DNA from: a virus
DNA: 23,493 nt
Direction: 5' to 3' (one strand)
IMG/VR virus record: IMGVR_UViG_3300012201_000009
Location: 1-23,493 of that record
This document shows positions 3,683 to 22,122 of this stretch, piece by piece (position 1 is the first letter of the stretch; every line of letters starts with the position of its first letter). Both the position numbers and the translations under genes were made by a program. Below the pieces are notes generated by a model that saw nothing but the letters and a program-made list of their open reading frames with translations, did no database searches and was not told the DNA's origin.

Positions 3683-5563
3683 TTACTCGCCGGCGGGCTT
3701 GGGCTCGGCTGCCAGGTACGGGGCGACCGCGCCGTCTTTCAGCACGATGTTGACCTCGCTGTGCGCGTACCCGAGGCTGTCGAGCATCCCGGTCAGCTCG
3801 GCCAGCTTGTAGTAGCCGTAGATGTCGTGCCGCTCGATCAGCAGCTTCGGCCGCAGCCGGTCCAGGGTGCCCGCCATGCCGGTCAGCGCCCGCAGGTCCG
3901 CGCCCTCGACGTCGAGCTTCACCAGGTCGATGCGCGGCTCGCTGGCGAGCAGGTGATCCAGCGGCACCGCCGGCACTGTCCCGTCACCGTCCCCCAGCCC
4001 GGCGGGCAGCACCCGGGTCGACCCGCCCGCGACCCGCCGGTTCGGGTCGTCCAGCCGCAGCCGGGTGACCTCGTCCCACGCGGCCACGTTCAGCACCTCC
4101 ACGTTCGCCACCTGATTGAGTTCCAGGTGCGCGCGCAGCACCGCCGCCGTGGCCGGGTTGGCCTCCACCGCGATCACCGCCGACGCCCGCTTCGCCATCC
4201 GCAGCGACCACCGGCCAACATGGGCGCCGACGTCCAGGAACACGCCGCCCTCGGGCAGCATCCCGGTCAGGACCGGCTCCAGCCACTCCTCGTGCCCGGT
4301 CGCGATCCAGTCGTCGGTATGCCCGCCACGCTGGATCCACCGCAGCCCGTCCGACTCGGCCGTCGGCAGCGGCAGGCCGCCCCGCCCCGCGCTCACCGGG
4401 GCCGCGCCCGCGTACTGGGCCAGCATCTCGACCAGCGGCTTCCAGTACTGCGCGTACACCAGGTCCGCGTCGTACTGCTCGGCGAAAGCCCTCGCCCTCT
4501 GCCGCAGGCCCGGGTTCCTGGCTGTCCGCCACGCCCGGTCCAGCGCCGTGCCGACCGACCTGACCAGCGGCGTCGCCCACCACGCCTCGTCGTCGGGCTG
4601 CCAGTACGGCTGACACTCAGCGGCCCACCCGGCGCCGAGGTACTCCGGCTGCGCCGAGTTGTCGCCGACGATCACCGGCACCCCGGCCGCCTGGCACTCC
4701 ATCGCGGGCAGGCCGAACCCCTCCCCGTACGACGTCATCAGGCCGACGTCGGAGCAGCCCAGCAGCCGCGCCACGTACGTCGGCGTGTAAACCCCGCTGA
4801 CCTGGCCGTACATGTCGCTGATGTGGGTGCAGTCCATCAGGCCCAGGTCATCGAGCAGCGGCACCAGGTCCAGCCCGTAGGGGCTGCGGGCCATCGTGTG
4901 CAGGAACAGCCGCGCCTCCGGGTGCCGGCCCCGGAACGCGGCGAACGCGGCCAGGTTCTCGCCGAACGCCTTCCGCGCCGGGCTGGTGCCCTTGTTCGCC
5001 GCCACCATCGTCACCAGGAACGCGTCCTGCGGCACCGTCAGCCGGTCCCGCGCCTCCGCCCGCTCCGCGTCGTCCAGCGGCCGGAACACCCCGCAGTCAA
5101 TGCCGTGCGGCGCGAAGTACGGGTCCAGGCCCGCGTTCCGCATCGCCGTCACGCCGTGCTGGCTCATCGCGATCGGCAGCGCCCGCGACGCCTTGAAGAA
5201 CCCCCGGTCACCCGCCGACAGCTTGTCGGAGTGGACCGGCGTCCACACCGCCGTCGCCAGCCCTGCCAGGCTCCCCGGGTCCAGGCACCAGGCGTCATAC
5301 AGCGCCAGGACCAGCCCCGGCCGACCGGCGAAGAAATGCCGGGCGTGCTCGCCGATGATGTCGTTGTTGCAGGCCACCAGGCCGACCGGCAGGCACAAGA
5401 TGTCCTTCCAGTACTGTGGCTGGCCGTTCAGGCCCGTCATGCACGCGATCGCCACGTCGTGGCCGTCGGCCTTCAGCCGCTCGGCGAGCAGCGCGGTCTG
5501 CTGCCCGTAACCCGACGCCAGCCACGGCCCGTTCGAGTCGAGCAGGATCGGGAACCCGGTCAC
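3683..5563 (-). CDS. Glycosyltransferase (GT4-like) fused to FkbM-type methyltransferase
   Basis: This 626-residue protein has two enzymatic halves. Residues 1-390 resemble a GT-B family 4 glycosyltransferase: a sugar-nucleotide site with the EX7E signature E281-GFGLPAM-E289, preceded by SYG, and HGID at 153-156. Residues about 405-615 resemble an FkbM methyltransferase: SAM-binding motif LDVGAHVG (443-450), acidic VEANP (466-470), VKLDVEGAD (548-556) and LLIERH (574-579). The GTG start overlaps the upstream stop as GTGA. It sits among head genes on the same strand, which suggests it adds a sugar to a virion protein or host glycan and methylates it; the substrate is unknown. Both domain calls rest on motifs seen; the virion-decoration role is inferred. 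Confidence 0.88.
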   Translation of the reverse strand: MTGFPILLDSNGPWLASGYGQQTALLAERLKADGHDVAIACMTGLNGQPQYWKDILCLPVGLVACNNDIIGEHARHFFAGRPGLVLALYDAWCLDPGSLAGLATAVWTPVHSDKLSAGDRGFFKASRALPIAMSQHGVTAMRNAGLDPYFAPHGIDCGVFRPLDDAERAEARDRLTVPQDAFLVTMVAANKGTSPARKAFGENLAAFAAFRGRHPEARLFLHTMARSPYGLDLVPLLDDLGLMDCTHISDMYGQVSGVYTPTYVARLLGCSDVGLMTSYGEGFGLPAMECQAAGVPVIVGDNSAQPEYLGAGWAAECQPYWQPDDEAWWATPLVRSVGTALDRAWRTARNPGLRQRARAFAEQYDADLVYAQYWKPLVEMLAQYAGAAPVSAGRGGLPLPTAESDGLRWIQRGGHTDDWIATGHEEWLEPVLTGMLPEGGVFLDVGAHVGRWSLRMAKRASAVIAVEANPATAAVLRAHLELNQVANVEVLNVAAWDEVTRLRLDDPNRRVAGGSTRVLPAGLGDGDGTVPAVPLDHLLASEPRIDLVKLDVEGADLRALTGMAGTLDRLRPKLLIERHDIYGYYKLAELTGMLDSLGYAHSEVNIVLKDGAVAPYLAAEPKPAGE

Positions 5564-9899: not shown

Positions 9900-11074
9900 A
9901 GCTTCTTGGCCCAATCCACTAGTTCCTGCGCCCACAGCGGGACACCCGCACCGACGATCGCCGATAGCTCACCAGGCCCGAGGGAGCCGTGGGAGCCGTG
10001 GGACGCCATGACCAGCGCGATCGCCACACCCGCCGCGACGAGGGCGCAGTGGATCGCCGCCTTGACCCGGTGCTTGTGCCGATCCTCGGCGTCCTGGATG
10101 TCCTCGGTGCGCCTGAACGCCTCTAGCGTGTCCTTCTGGAGCTGAAGCAGTTTCTTGATGTCGGCCTGGTGCTCCACGCCGAGGCCGGCAAGTGCCTTGT
10201 CGAGGTCTGCCTGTGTCAGTGCGGCGGAGCCGCCGCCGGCCTTCTTGGCGAACTTGCCAGCCCGGTCACGCGGGTGCTGCGACGGCGTGAAGTCAGCCCG
10301 GGCAAGTTCCTCGCCCCACGCCCAGCCCAGCCCGCCGCGCCGCGCGGGGGAGGGGGCGACCCCGCCTGGCGCGTCGATGCCGAACACGGTCAGCGCCGCC
10401 GCCCACGCGCCGCCGCCGTGCGCATCCCACCACGCCGGGTCCTGCGCGGCAGCCAGCGCCCGGATCCGACCGAGGTCCATTCCTGAGTCGTCCACCGCAG
10501 CCACCCGCTTATGCCCTCCGTGCAACGCCATGATGTGGTAGTCCGGGTTGTCGAACCGGCCGTAGTCCCACCCCGGCGGGGCTTCCTTCGGGTCGAACGG
10601 ATACCGGGCGCTGTCCTCGAACCCGACCGTGCCGTACATCTTCGGCAGCGCCGGCCCGAAGCACTCGATGTAGTTCGCGCCGTACCGGGCCACCGCCCGC
10701 CGCAGCAGCGCCAGCCCCATGCCCCGCCGGCCCGACGTGTTGAACACCGCCGTCGGCTCGATCCGCCCGTCACCGTGCGGACGGACCAGGATCCCCGCCT
10801 TGCCCCCCGCCGCCAGGACCGGCGTCATGCCGCCTTCCCGGATCTGCGCCGGCGTGTAGTGGTTCACGAACGCGGCGAACGGGCTGCCCTGGAACGCCGC
10901 CTCGAACGCCTTGGAGAACTCCTCCGGGCTCGCCTCCCGGGCGTCGGCCAGGACCGCCGGGGAGTGCTTGATCCAGCCGCCCGCGTTCTTGGCGCCGAAC
11001 TGGCCGAGCCGATCACGCGGGTGCAGCTTCTCATCCCACCGGGCCAGCTCGTCCCAGCCGGCCAGCGCGGTCAC
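9896..11074 (-). CDS. Head-associated protein with GNAT-like domain, two HPRDR tags and a membrane segment
   Basis: The GTG start overlaps the portal stop (GTGA). The 392-residue chain carries an N-terminal HPRDRLGQF tag (18-26). A GNAT-like region follows at about 85-185 (VFNTSGRRGMGLALLRRAV, CFGPALPKMYGTVGF, APPGWDYG), a pattern I know from acetyltransferase-like domains of phage polyvalent proteins. A second HPRDRAGKFA tag is at 267-276, then helices, a hydrophobic segment (about 338-357, ending ALVMASHG), and a hydrophobic C-terminus. Such mixtures are known in proteins packaged with phage DNA and delivered to the host. This could be an injected effector or a minor head protein; acetyl-CoA binding is not proven by sequence. 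Confidence 0.72.
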   Translation of the reverse strand: MTALAGWDELARWDEKLHPRDRLGQFGAKNAGGWIKHSPAVLADAREASPEEFSKAFEAAFQGSPFAAFVNHYTPAQIREGGMTPVLAAGGKAGILVRPHGDGRIEPTAVFNTSGRRGMGLALLRRAVARYGANYIECFGPALPKMYGTVGFEDSARYPFDPKEAPPGWDYGRFDNPDYHIMALHGGHKRVAAVDDSGMDLGRIRALAAAQDPAWWDAHGGGAWAAALTVFGIDAPGGVAPSPARRGGLGWAWGEELARADFTPSQHPRDRAGKFAKKAGGGSAALTQADLDKALAGLGVEHQADIKKLLQLQKDTLEAFRRTEDIQDAEDRHKHRVKAAIHCALVAAGVAIALVMASHGSHGSLGPGELSAIVGAGVPLWAQELVDWAKKL

Positions 11075-13557
11075 TTCCTGCTCCCCCGCGCCCCGTTAGG
11101 CATCGGCGGCGACGGCTGGAACTGGCCCGGCTTCGCGTTCGGCACGTTCGGCTTGCCCACCCCCGGCAGCGCCTCCGGCTTCCCGGCCTGCGGCGGGCGG
11201 CCCGGCCCGATCGCCTTCTGCACCACCGTGCCCGCGATCCCCGGCGCCGGCGTCGCCTGCCCGCCGGTCTGCCCCAGGTGCTCCGTCTCCGTCACCCGGC
11301 CGGCCATGCCCGGCGTCGGCGCGTTCGGGTCGGGCTTGAGCTGGCTGATGTCCCCGCTGTCAGCCGCCGCGATCGCCGACTCGCGGGTGAACCCCGCCGA
11401 GACGAACGACTGCACCGCCTGCGCCTTCACCAGCGTCGTCTGCCCGCGCTGCAGCTCGCCCTCGCGCAGCGCCGCGATGCCCGACACGTCGAACCACAGC
11501 TTCACCCCGACCAGCGGCACGTTCGGCACCAGGTGCTGGAGCACCGCGCACGCCTTCCGCCAGCGCGGCCTAGCCCACAGGTCAGACAGCCGGCGCACCG
11601 CCGCCTGGTAGTCGCCCTGCTCGAACCCCAGGATCACGTCCAGGCCCGGCCCCGCCGCCGCGCAGATCCGCCGCTCACCAACGTGGGTCAGCGCCTCAAG
11701 CTGAAGCTGCTCCAGCGTCGACCCCACGACCGTCGCGTCCGCGCCCTCGTCCAGGACCCAGATCTTCCCGGCGTTCTCCGGGCCGCTGTGCTTCGCGGTC
11801 AGCCGCTTCGCCAGCGTCTCGACCGTCTCGTCCTTCAGCTTCCGCGTGTACTTGACCACGATGCCGGGCATCGCCCCGTTGTCCAGGTGCGTCGTCCGGT
11901 AGCTCGTGATCGCGTCGTCGCCCCGGACCTCCCGGATCAGCGACACCAGCCACGACATGCCCCGCCAGTTGGCGTCCGGGTCGATCGTCGGGCTGTTCCC
12001 TGTGAACCAGATGCTGCCGCGCCGGCGGGCCAGCCATGTCTGATTCGGCGTACGCGGGCACCACACCCGGCCGTCATAGCCGACCCGGCGGATGCGGAAC
12101 CGCCCGTGCCTCTCCTGCGGGTAAATGTGCAACTTAGACAGCATCCGCGCATTGGTCATCCGGTAGCCGGCCTGGTTCACGGACCCTTGCCTCAGCGACA
12201 CCGCCGACCCGGCGAGGATGCACGCCAGCGCGAACGCCTCAGCCGCAGCCGGGTCACGCTGCGCTAGGCGGCGCGGCCCGTTGTTGTCCGCCAGCAGCGA
12301 CACCGCGATAAAGAGATCAAGCTGGGCGCGGGTCAGCGCGCGCAGGAACACTGTGGTCACTATCTTGCCCGGCGCATGCGCGGTGAGCACGTCCCCGGCC
12401 GCTGAATTCAGCCGAAAGATCACGTTGCGCCCGGACAGGTTCTCGCTCCACCGGGGCAGCGAATGACTGGCGCGCCGGTCAGGCGCGGCCGGGCCGAACA
12501 GCGTGGTCAGCGCAGCCCTGATTCGGACTACGTTCGGCTCGCTGACGACCGCTGACTGGCTGATCGTCACAGCCCGTGTCGGCCGGCCATGCCTGCGCCG
12601 GATGCAGCCCTCAGTCCAGAACCAGGCAACCGCCTCCACCAGCGCATCGGACCACTTCGGATCCGCCGGCAGGTCCGACGGGATCGCGGCCACCGGGATG
12701 CGGTCACCCGCCCCGATTGTCTCCGACGTCACCCACCGCCGCCCGTACGTTTGGCGGCGGGAGATCCTGTACTCCGCTGGCCAGCGGTGATTCGGCGTGG
12801 TCAGCGAACTGTGATCGCGGCCCTCCATTGAGATCATCTCGCGGCGTGCCGCCGGGAACACGCATACCTCAGTGACCGGCTGCCATTCCGACATGCCGGT
12901 CTGGTGATTCAGTGTCAGCGCCTCATCGCCTGGCCGAAGATCATCAACGCTCTTCCACCCGCCGGCGGTGAGGATCTGCGTTTCCTCATCAACGCAGTAG
13001 TGCGCCACCTCGTCGACCGTGTAGAACTGGGGCTCCCGGTCGATGCCCAGCGGCCGGACATCCTCGATGTAGCCGACCGGCTGCTTGTAGACCCGGTCCT
13101 GGGTGTCGTGCAGCTCGGCCGACACGATCGTCACCAGGTCCGCCCGCATGACCCGCAGGCTGTTCTCCGAGTCGTCCGACGGCTCGACCCGCTGCACGTA
13201 CGCGTTCCCGGCCGTGGAGTCGCCGACCTCCAGCCGCGACCACAGCTCCCCCGCGTCGGCGTTCGGCCACGGGTGCTCCAGGATCGTCAGATCCTGCGTG
13301 CCGAACAGCGACTTGTCGGCCTGCCGCTGGAACTGGAACACCGCCTCGGACAGCAGCGCCTGCCGTGTCTCCACGCACGCGAACACCGGCCCGTTCGCCT
13401 TGTACGCCTCCCGGGCGTGCCGCACGATGTGCTGCGCGACGCCCTCCCGCGACCGGCCGCCCGGGTCGTTCGACGACACCTCGTACGCGCCGGACCACAT
13501 CGCCTCGTTGTAGCCGGCCAGGCGCGAGATGCCCATCCGGTCAATCAGCCTGGTCAC
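11071..13557 (-). CDS. Portal protein interrupted by an intein
   Basis: The reading frame of 828 codons starts at GTG 13557 (GTGA overlap with the 56-residue gene). Residues 1-187 and 522-828 together form a 494-residue phage portal protein. N-part motifs include GPVFACVETRQALLSEAVFQ and STAGNAYVQRV; C-part motifs include PDANWRGMSWLVSLIREV, NGAMPGIVVKYTRKL and DVILGFEQGDY. The extein join reads VAHY-SPTIDPDANWRGMSW, which restores the expected portal sequence. The C-terminal 100 residues are Pro/Gly-rich and probably disordered. The portal forms the dodecameric DNA gateway and receives the terminase; the adjacent terminase gene agrees. Protein splicing must occur for function. Confidence 0.93.
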   Translation of the reverse strand: MTRLIDRMGISRLAGYNEAMWSGAYEVSSNDPGGRSREGVAQHIVRHAREAYKANGPVFACVETRQALLSEAVFQFQRQADKSLFGTQDLTILEHPWPNADAGELWSRLEVGDSTAGNAYVQRVEPSDDSENSLRVMRADLVTIVSAELHDTQDRVYKQPVGYIEDVRPLGIDREPQFYTVDEVAHYCVDEETQILTAGGWKSVDDLRPGDEALTLNHQTGMSEWQPVTEVCVFPAARREMISMEGRDHSSLTTPNHRWPAEYRISRRQTYGRRWVTSETIGAGDRIPVAAIPSDLPADPKWSDALVEAVAWFWTEGCIRRRHGRPTRAVTISQSAVVSEPNVVRIRAALTTLFGPAAPDRRASHSLPRWSENLSGRNVIFRLNSAAGDVLTAHAPGKIVTTVFLRALTRAQLDLFIAVSLLADNNGPRRLAQRDPAAAEAFALACILAGSAVSLRQGSVNQAGYRMTNARMLSKLHIYPQERHGRFRIRRVGYDGRVWCPRTPNQTWLARRRGSIWFTGNSPTIDPDANWRGMSWLVSLIREVRGDDAITSYRTTHLDNGAMPGIVVKYTRKLKDETVETLAKRLTAKHSGPENAGKIWVLDEGADATVVGSTLEQLQLEALTHVGERRICAAAGPGLDVILGFEQGDYQAAVRRLSDLWARPRWRKACAVLQHLVPNVPLVGVKLWFDVSGIAALREGELQRGQTTLVKAQAVQSFVSAGFTRESAIAAADSGDISQLKPDPNAPTPGMAGRVTETEHLGQTGGQATPAPGIAGTVVQKAIGPGRPPQAGKPEALPGVGKPNVPNAKPGQFQPSPPMPNGARGSRK
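11995..12996 (-). mobile_element. Intein in the portal gene (334 aa, LAGLIDADG-like remnants)
   Basis: The intein runs from Cys188 to Asn521 of the portal frame, with Ser522 as the +1 residue. Block A is CVDEETQILTAGGWKSVDDL and block B contains TTPNHRWPA. Block F begins VWCPRTPNQTWLA, and block G ends WFTGN, with Gly in place of the usual penultimate His. The middle has AVAWFWTEGCI, resembling one LAGLIDADG helix, and FIAVSLLADNNG, resembling a second with altered acidic residues. Codon choice here is somewhat less GC-biased than in the exteins. The splicing domain looks intact; the endonuclease may be decayed. Confidence 0.92.
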
Positions 13558-16328: not shown

Positions 16329-17186
16329 TCAATGGAGCGGTGGACGGAATGCACTATTTGCCCGAATGGCCCGGGCTGTCGCCAACCGCTCTTCGCGCGT
16401 TGATGCAAGCGGGATGTCGGCGAAGACATCGCCGTACCGATTTAGCCGATGGTAGTGGGGGGCGCAGCAACCCCGGCCGAATGATCCTTTGGCACTGCAT
16501 CCTGTAACCCGGCAAGTCTGACCACGCGGGCGCTTCGGCTTCAAGTGGCGGGCGGTGATGCATGACGCGCATGTCGTGCTGTTCGCTCTTGCTTTCTTGA
16601 TCACACTGCCACACATGCATATGCGTATCGGGTCGTGCAACGGGCAGCGCCTAGCAGTGATTCTCTCGCCACAGATATCGCAGTAGCGGGGTCTGCGTTC
16701 GGGCCTTGGCCTGGCTTCTAGGTCTGCGCCGAAGTCGAGGATGCCCTGCAGGTCGGGCGTGTTGCCTCGTGCCATGTTGCAGCCGAGGTGTGCTGCCCGC
16801 TTGTTGAGCGCGGTGTCTGAGCCGCCGTGTGAGAGGGGCACGATGTGGTCGATGCTGGGTGAGCGCAGGTGCGGGTACTTGTAGGTCTTGCCTATGCGCT
16901 TGCGGCAGATGCCGCAGATCCAGCGATCCCGGTCCCTGACCTCATCGTCGGTGACGCCGTCGTACCCTGCGGCGTTCAGCCACATCCGCCGCTTGCGGGC
17001 TTTGGCGAGCGCCTTGGTCGCACGCTGCTCGGGTGCCTGTGCAAGCCGGCCTTGGCTGTTGCGCCAGCTAGTTGCGCAGGACTTGGAGCAGAACCGCTGC
17101 GGCGGCTTGCCTCTTGTCCTTGATCCTGGCGTGTAGATGACATGGCAGTCCGGCCACTCGCATTCGCGTGGCTCGCGCTTGCTCAT
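16329..17186 (-). CDS. HNH endonuclease with several zinc-binding motifs
   Basis: Starting at ATG 17186 (GTG 17192 also possible), the product is about 285 residues. Order of parts: an N-terminal zinc finger (CEWPDCHVIYTP then RFCSKSC), an HNH core (ICGICRKRIG, SIDHIVPLSHGGSD, LGCNMARGN), a second Cys cluster (YCDICGERI, CPLH, CMCG, CASC), and a C-terminal CxxxGC...RGCCAPHYHR.NRYGD motif often seen in homing-type nucleases. HNH proteins beside terminase genes take part in cos-end packaging in HK97-like phages, but the extra DNA-binding fingers also fit a free-standing homing endonuclease. The GC content at its 3' end is lower than in its neighbours, which hints at separate acquisition. Confidence 0.88.
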   Translation of the reverse strand: MSKREPRECEWPDCHVIYTPGSRTRGKPPQRFCSKSCATSWRNSQGRLAQAPEQRATKALAKARKRRMWLNAAGYDGVTDDEVRDRDRWICGICRKRIGKTYKYPHLRSPSIDHIVPLSHGGSDTALNKRAAHLGCNMARGNTPDLQGILDFGADLEARPRPERRPRYCDICGERITARRCPLHDPIRICMCGSVIKKARANSTTCASCITARHLKPKRPRGQTCRVTGCSAKGSFGRGCCAPHYHRLNRYGDVFADIPLASTREERLATARAIRANSAFRPPLH

Positions 17187-17276
17187 GGGCACATCGTCCC
17201 GTACGCCACCGACGGTCCATGTTATCGTGCAGGTCAGCGGGGACTGGCATGAATACGCCGTACTTGCCCATCGTAA

Positions 17277-20969: not shown

Positions 20970-21349
20970 GCACTCGCCGATCGGGAACCCTTTCAGGGCG
21001 CACGGGTTCGGCTGCGCTCCCGATGTTGCACGCTGAACCGGCGGCTTGTCAAACCCCGCGCCCGCTCACCCGGCCATCGCCACGGCGTTGCCCGAGGCCA
21101 GCATCAGGGCCGCGAAGTCGCTGCCGTCAGGCAGGGTGAGCGTCCCGTCCCACCGGCCTCCGTACTTGTCCCAGGAGTGCGACACGGCGGTGACCATGGT
21201 ACCGGGCGGGCACACCTGCACCGCGTAGGCCAGCGCCGCCTTCCCCGCGTCGGTGGACAGTTCGGGAGCGTTGATGCCCCAGATGCGGCACGAGAGCTGC
21301 GGGCGCCCGGACAGGGTGTACGCGGCGGCGCGGATGGCGAAGCCCAGGT

Positions 21350-21358
21350 CTGTAATAT
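21350..21358 (+). promoter_or_regulatory. AT-rich junction with possible -10 (TAATAT) for the HNH gene
   Basis: TGTAATAT at 21351-21358 is conspicuously AT-rich in this GC-rich DNA and contains TAATAT, near-consensus for a -10 box, reading toward the HNH gene 62 bases downstream. CTGTA at 21350-21354 recurs at the other element boundary (22059-22063). No clear -35 is seen. Confidence 0.3.
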
Positions 21359-21368
21359 GTCCACGTGG

Positions 21369-21427
21369 GCAGTGTCCCCATCATGCCAATCTAGTACGCG
21401 AGCAGGGTAAGGACCGTAGGTGGACAT
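21369..21427 (-). repeat. Left copy of nuclease 5'-end direct repeat
   Basis: This 59-base segment aligns without gaps to 22064-22122 at about 43 of 59 positions. On the minus strand both encode a nuclease N-terminus, agreeing at 17 of 20 residues (shared GPYPARV and WHDGDTA). This copy uses less GC-rich codons and has the strong ribosome binding site. Confidence 0.85.
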
Positions 21428-22064
21428 GGAATCACCTCCTTCAGCCGATCGCCGTCAGCGACCGGGCTTGGCGGAACGCAACAGGGCACGAAGAGGCGGC
21501 CCGTACTACTACGAGGACGCAGACTGGATGAACGAGGCTTACGTTATCCGGGGCCTCAGCCTTCGCCAAGTTGCCGCCGAGGCCGGGTGCTCGCTCAGGA
21601 CGATCGCCAGATGGATGAAGGTCCACGGCATCGCCACCCGGACTGCCGCACCGCCGCCGGTCCGGGCCGGCAAGGAGCATCCAAGATGGCGCGGCGCAGC
21701 CATCTGCCCCGGCTGCGGGGGACTCAAGTCGCGGGGCAAGACGAGGACGTGCATCAAGTGCCGCGTACGGCGAGGCGCGGATAACCCGAAATGGCGCGGC
21801 GACGAGGCAGGCTACACCGCTATCCACTATCGCCTGAACGCGGCGCGCGGGAAGCCTTCCGAGCACAGTTGCGCCCGGTGCGGGAAGGCGGCGGATGAGT
21901 GGGCCTACGACCACGCCGATCCAGGTGAGCGGCGGAACGGCATAGGCCGGGACGATGGTCCTTTCAGCCTCGACTTGGCCCGCTACATGCCGTTGTGCAA
22001 GCGATGTCACCGGCAGCTTGACAATGGCCGTGCTGCGGATCGCCGGGCAGATAGCCGCCTGTAG
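21420..22064 (+). CDS. HNH homing-type endonuclease with helix-turn-helix
   Basis: GTG 21420 is preceded by TAAGGA six bases upstream; ATG 21426 is the alternative. The 214-residue product has a helix-turn-helix (about 44-66, GLSLRQVAAEAGCSLRTIAR), a zinc ribbon (CPGCGG...CIKC), two W-R-G motifs (EHPRWRG and DNPKWRG) like NUMOD-type DNA contacts, and a C-terminal HNH core (CARCGKAADEWAYDHADP and PLCKRCHRQLDN). This is the layout of phage free-standing homing endonucleases. It is antisense to the nuclease gene; its start lies in the left 5'-end copy and its TAG stop abuts the right copy. It should cut a nuclease-gene allele lacking the insertion, by analogy with known homing enzymes. Confidence 0.9.
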   Translation: MDMESPPSADRRQRPGLAERNRARRGGPYYYEDADWMNEAYVIRGLSLRQVAAEAGCSLRTIARWMKVHGIATRTAAPPPVRAGKEHPRWRGAAICPGCGGLKSRGKTRTCIKCRVRRGADNPKWRGDEAGYTAIHYRLNAARGKPSEHSCARCGKAADEWAYDHADPGERRNGIGRDDGPFSLDLARYMPLCKRCHRQLDNGRAADRRADSRL

Positions 22065-22122
22065 CGGTGTCGCCGTCATGCCAGCCGACGACGCGGGCAG
22101 GGTACGGGCCGAACGTGCTCAC
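22064..22122 (-). repeat. Right copy of nuclease 5'-end direct repeat (orphan start)
   Basis: On the minus strand GTG 22122 opens a frame encoding MSTFGPYPARVVGWHDGDTA, the same N-terminus as the nuclease gene, in GC-rich codons like the surrounding genes. Homology stops exactly at the HNH stop codon (TAG 22062-22064). It appears to be the original 5' end of the nuclease gene, now separated from its body. Confidence 0.82.

Follow-up and report, generated by a model that had tools for sequence, protein, structure and literature searches.

An uncultured phage carries a plus-strand HNH open reading frame (ORF) flanked by two 5′ ends of one SNase-like gene, and this arrangement is, with a probability of roughly 0.6, the phage counterpart, mirrored to the 5′ end, of the homing elements that replace gene ends in fungal mitochondria, having arisen at one break that was closed by an imperfect joint. 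The locus lies in a window of 23,493 nucleotides, by which we mean the whole stretch of DNA analysed (IMG/VR virus record IMGVR_UViG_3300012201_000009). From its letters can be read two copies of the gene start, of which the left one appears to be foreign together with the HNH gene, a single break zone in the resident gene, and two interlocked starts. We regard the anatomy of the locus and its origin by insertion into a single break as well supported. Cutting by the HNH protein itself, and concealment of the gene from it by the left copy, are plausible, with about even chances.

If true, the phage case would add to the fungal one another, probably independent means by which a selfish nuclease can interrupt a conserved gene and yet preserve it, and would show how phage genes may come to be chimeric. 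Sequence alone reveals the intact target, a predicted cut zone of ~12 nt and the supposedly resistant allele, so that the idea is directly testable.

Two starts of one gene around an HNH gene

The first-pass annotation, made from the letters alone, had described the plus-strand HNH gene as lodged between two diverged 5′ ends of the SNase-like gene. This is borne out by an independent repeat search, in which the pair formed the longest and strongest direct repeat of the region (66 nt at 73%), and by a blastn alignment of the two HNH-gene flanks with each other (E = 7e-10). The agreement that it had given for the two copies was reproduced as well, with 43/59 bases (73%) and 17/20 residues shared between 21369-21427 and 22064-22122, and the CTGTA noted at both boundaries is present on direct reading (Table 1). 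The left copy is indeed a codon-diverged 5′ end, but its extent had been underestimated: it reaches beyond 21369 to codon 24 at 21356, and the right copy ends at codon 20. The left copy reads MSTYGPYPARVLDWHDGDTAHVDI from its ATG at 21427 to codon 24; the right copy, which begins at the HNH gene's stop codon, reads MSTFGPYPARVVGWHDGDTA from the GTG at 22122 to 22064 and is then cut off. Comparison of the flanks of ~30 related HNH genes revealed no comparable gene-end repeat. Flank repeats at two other HNH genes (L113 and L086) were rejected, as the repeated parts were not gene ends.

Table 1. Features of the interrupted SNase-like gene and its insert, in window coordinates.
Feature	Position	Strand	Remark
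Body of SNase-like gene, codon 25 (D of DLGF) to stop; probably original resident gene	21066..21350	-	Open frame, shifted relative to left copy
CTGTA at left joint	21350..21354	+	Direct reading
TTACA, 5 extra bases at joint of left copy and body	21351..21355	-	Absent from 37/38 distinct 5′ ends of relatives
Left copy, complete 5′ end of SNase gene, codons 1-24, ATG 21427-21425; probably foreign	21356..21427	-	GC3
TAAGGA, likely ribosome-binding site of HNH gene, antisense in recoded G-P-Y codons of left copy	21408..21413	+	6 nt upstream of GTG 21420
HNH endonuclease gene, 214 residues, GTG start 21420, alternative ATG 21426	21420..22064	+	PHROG 8446
AAGGAGGTGAT, predicted ribosome-binding site of left copy, in HNH codons 4-8 on the other strand	21431..21441	-	11-nt perfect match to Shine-Dalgarno consensus
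CTGTA at right joint, end of HNH gene	22059..22063	+	Direct reading
Right copy, codons 1-20, GTG start 22122; probably original 5′ end of SNase gene, stranded as remnant	22064..22122	-	73% identity to left copy; GC3

Codon composition indicates which of the two copies is foreign. GC3 amounts to 0.50 in the left copy (10/20), 0.85 in the right copy (17/20), 0.94 in the body (89/95) and 0.76 in the HNH gene (162/214); four further window genes range from 0.88 to 0.96. Compared with the body, a difference is found for the left copy (Fisher p = 1e-5, a signal carried by 20 codons) and for the HNH gene (p = 1e-4), but not for the right copy (p = 0.19). A general lowering of GC3 at gene starts was excluded as the cause of the left-copy value by 35 intact relatives, in which the 5′ end minus its own body gives −0.13 to +0.18; the left copy, at −0.44, falls outside this range. 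Because of these differences, the simplest reading joins the right copy and the body in one original gene, in keeping with the earlier proposal that the right copy is its start, and treats the left copy together with the HNH gene as an insert from elsewhere.

The HNH protein matches PHROG 8446 (HNH endonuclease) over residues 30-204 (E = 4e-19), and its last ~90 residues, the C-terminal part, are 33-47% identical to those of relatives in Mycobacterium, Gordonia, Streptomyces and Rhodococcus phages. The WAYDH, CxxC and CxxCH residues align with these phage relatives, the core DH and CH residues being kept. Pfam yielded only sub-threshold helix-turn-helix matches on this protein, and its HNH models were not reached. 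The structure model is confident in the nuclease core only, and a fold search with this model gave no significant match. Two marks of a free-standing HNH homing endonuclease were found, namely an HNH domain with its core residues and an empty, uninterrupted site in relatives.

The starts of the HNH gene and of the left copy are divergent and interlocked, since the HNH start overlaps the start codon of the left copy. The predicted ribosome-binding site of the left copy, AAGGAGGTGAT, occurs only once in the window (0.00 expected). By reading, the TAAGGA of the HNH gene is absent from the right copy, and the original SNase start (GTG 22122) has no recognisable ribosome-binding site. The replacement end therefore carries its own translation start. 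Back-to-back starts, each with its ribosome-binding site in the coding sequence of the other, suggest a compact unit with its own gene start, in which the HNH gene and the left-copy SNase start look adapted to each other. The insert contains no sigma-70-like promoters and no terminators, the promoter result being little informative for actinophages.

The uninterrupted gene in relatives and the break site

Relatives were gathered with the body as query and with a seven-member profile, which provided ~50 viral loci; 5′-end patterns added two more contigs. A search for an uninterrupted SNase gene, as had been recommended, was successful: the gene is intact in nearly all of the ~50 related viral loci, one intact relative being 81% identical to the window's body over 79 residues, and 37/38 distinct 5′ ends continue in frame into the body, with L023 as the exception. 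A duplicated 5′ end was seen in no relative among these 38. SNase relatives from GTDB contigs and from 396 genomes of a single phylum were only distant and had no HNH gene of these kinds nearby.

Aligning the relatives, which the first-pass annotation had named as the means of defining the insertion point, placed both recipient breakpoints at codons 20-25, within ~12 nt. The original gene stops at codon 20 on one side of the insert and restarts at codon 25 on the other, ~12 bases having been lost, and the left copy provides codons 1-24, so that it ends where the body starts and covers exactly the codons upstream of the break. Since two unrelated crossovers would rarely lie so near each other and match in position, a single double-strand break into which a cassette was fitted is the likely explanation. 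The break sits directly behind the catalytic DGDT motif. In staphylococcal nuclease, this motif contains metal-binding aspartates. Homing nucleases often target functionally critical codons (PMC2988022).

The left copy does not restore the reading frame into DLGFAIRAA: the 5 extra bases TTACA lie between them and put the hybrid gene out of frame, and because of them the hybrid SNase gene is broken in this genome. Either imprecise joining at the insertion or later gene decay could account for this joint. Losing a few bases while gaining a short insertion is reminiscent of end joining, a pathway present in many actinobacteria; the CTGTA repeat may have been copied as filler from the opposite end or may match by chance. 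Gene 60 of T4 contains a bypass element across which it is read; at the TTACA joint, a programmed frameshift or ribosome hop was considered and rejected, no slippery heptamer being found by reading and no evidence speaking for either.

The spacer between GDT and D[LVIF]GF comprises 5 residues in most relatives and is shorter in none of the 38 distinct 5′ ends. It is longer in L054, L059, L060 and L062, which have insertions of ~8-14 residues there; these are in frame, and the GDT-DLGF hairpin therefore tolerates length changes.

A separate observation concerns L023, a close relative that is 82% identical to L022, likewise close. At 4995-5060 of L023, 8 additional bases (TTTAGCGT) within the DGDT codons shift the frame of the SNase gene, not far from where the window's gene is broken. 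No HNH gene is present at or near the site in L023. The insertion could have been left by repair after a cut at the equivalent position, or could have arisen by chance; by a rough estimate, the chance that one frameshift in a gene of ~350 bases falls within ~10 bases of the window's breakpoint is several per cent.

Origin of the insert

We propose the following history. A free-standing HNH homing-type endonuclease gene would have entered the SNase-like gene as a cassette together with a foreign, codon-diverged 5′ end. The resident gene would have been broken once, between codons 20 and 25 and right after DGDT, presumably by the HNH protein itself. Codons 1-24 of the cassette would then have been joined to the resident body from codon 25 on, and the end of the HNH gene, on the other side, to the stranded original codons 1-20. 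Imprecise joining, as in end joining, with ~12 nt lost and 5 nt added, would have left the rebuilt gene out of frame. Through the foreign codons of the left copy, the rebuilt gene would escape recognition by the HNH nuclease and be resistant to cutting, and the left copy and the HNH gene may form a mobile unit. The earlier idea of a gene-end-replacing homing element holds in respect of the intact relatives, the codon match, the one break zone of ~12 nt and the replacement end's own ribosome-binding site, but not in respect of the reading frame.

To trace a donor, IMG/VR was searched with the HNH protein, with its C-terminal part and with a two-sequence profile, phage records were searched by tblastn and plasmids by blastn, and an HNH profile was run against 31 SNase-bearing viral records. 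The unit of left copy and HNH gene occurs once in everything searched: neither a donor nor a second copy was found in IMG/VR, phage or plasmid records, which returned distant HNH genes only. This result, the out-of-frame hybrid and a composition signal of 20 codons stand against the full idea. That the insert represents a new class of phage homing cassettes with a recoded gene start, which would interrupt a conserved gene while providing it with a resistant 5′ end translated from its own start, is a tentative suggestion, the odds being somewhat against it; on this reading, the out-of-frame joint would be a secondary or failed event.

The most serious rival is ordinary illegitimate recombination between two phages, by which an HNH gene and the adjoining SNase start landed here by chance, with the HNH protein uninvolved and the second 5′ end having no rescue function. 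Such an event would suit the mosaic nature of phage genomes, the lack of a second copy of the unit in IMG/VR and the SNase-bearing viral records, and the out-of-frame joint, at which no rescue is seen. It would, on the other hand, have to place both recipient breakpoints within ~12 nt, stop the inserted 5′ end at the matching codon, end the HNH gene exactly at the other joint and pick up two interlocked starts, and we regard it as unlikely, if by no means far-fetched.

Two tandem SNase paralogues are disfavoured and improbable. The left copy and the body would here be one gene, to which the left copy's own start codon and ribosome-binding site would be suited, and the right copy would be a decayed second gene that took up the HNH gene; GC3, however, separates the left copy sharply from the body and does not separate the right copy, the left copy and the body are in different frames, and no relative has two copies. 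An assembly chimera of two related phages has to be considered for any metagenomic virus record such as this one, and is highly improbable: the copies share short exact stretches only, so that an assembler would have had no long shared word for switching, and the interlocked starts are a biological feature. Least probable of all is a transposon-like insertion with a target duplication of 4-5 bp. In its favour, CTGTA flanks the insert (a 4-5 base match at both joints would arise by chance in an estimated ~1-2% of cases); against it, no transposase is present, and the empty site would have 2 residues (GDT-AT-DLGF) where relatives have at least 5. A simple CTGTA target-site duplication is disfavoured because removal of the insert would leave the gene three residues shorter than any relative.

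Related elements and further observations

The nearest parallel to the proposed homing insertion is provided by the mobile ORFs (mORFs) of Glomus (atp6, atp9, cox2, nad3) and Allomyces (atp6) mitochondria, in which an endonuclease ORF lies between a foreign and a native carboxy-terminal end (PMC3630166). In Glomus, the inserted end is 64-81% identical to the native one; the native end is closer to the gene core or to relatives, the core runs into the inserted end in frame, and the hybrids are transcribed (PMC3630166). The phage locus resembles mORFs in that its nuclease gene lies between a diverged, apparently foreign end and a native one, the copies being 73% identical, and in that the inserted end is the foreign one and the stranded end the native one, as judged from GC3 over 20 codons (PMC3630166). 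Unlike the phage locus, with its 5′ end and divergent HNH gene, mORFs replace the 3′ end, the ORF lies downstream in the same direction, and it encodes a LAGLIDADG or GIY-YIG enzyme. Their hybrids are in frame and transcribed, whereas the joint in the phage is out of frame, and for this reason we do not file its element as a member of the mORF type.

Among phages, Cluster J mycobacteriophages contain a free-standing HNH gene, e.g., Omega gp51, whose insertion was accompanied by the loss of 35 bp of target and a new lysA end (PMC3706429). The present locus likewise shows an HNH insertion in an actinophage with target loss (~12 nt) and an altered end of the neighbouring gene; in Cluster J, by contrast, the new lysA end has not been presented as a homologous replacement, nor is there mention of an original end left stranded (PMC3706429). 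The free-standing homing endonucleases of T4, such as MobA in gene 60, MobE and SegF, similarly lie at functionally critical codons, inside a conserved gene or next to it, and MobA splits its host gene, but no duplicated gene end is described for them (PMC2988022). No phage example of gene-end replacement was found in open-access papers, most subscription papers being beyond reach.

Several further features were observed in the window and in L035, a phage whose capsid and portal are related to those of the window. A second HNH gene of the window (16329-17192, minus strand; PF01844, E = 7e-6) has a GC3 lowered to 0.74 and no duplicated gene ends alongside. In L035, the SNase gene has a different, HNH_3-type gene (4310-4981; E = 5e-9) as its immediate upstream neighbour on the same strand. 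The major capsid gene of L035 apparently contains, close to its 3′ end, an intron-like interruption of ~250 bases (~3935-4205), which has no Rfam match and behind which the missing C-terminal residues (FMYWRVG...) recur. The window's portal gene (11071-13557, minus strand) likely contains an intein: the L035 portal aligns as two contiguous pieces to portal residues 84-188 and 522-772 of the window, and the ~333 inserted residues begin like a Hint domain (weak Pfam match to Hint_2, E = 0.014). Finally, imperfect direct repeats with 67-69% identity at 34-458 of the window encode GAVPVPD-like units in one frame.
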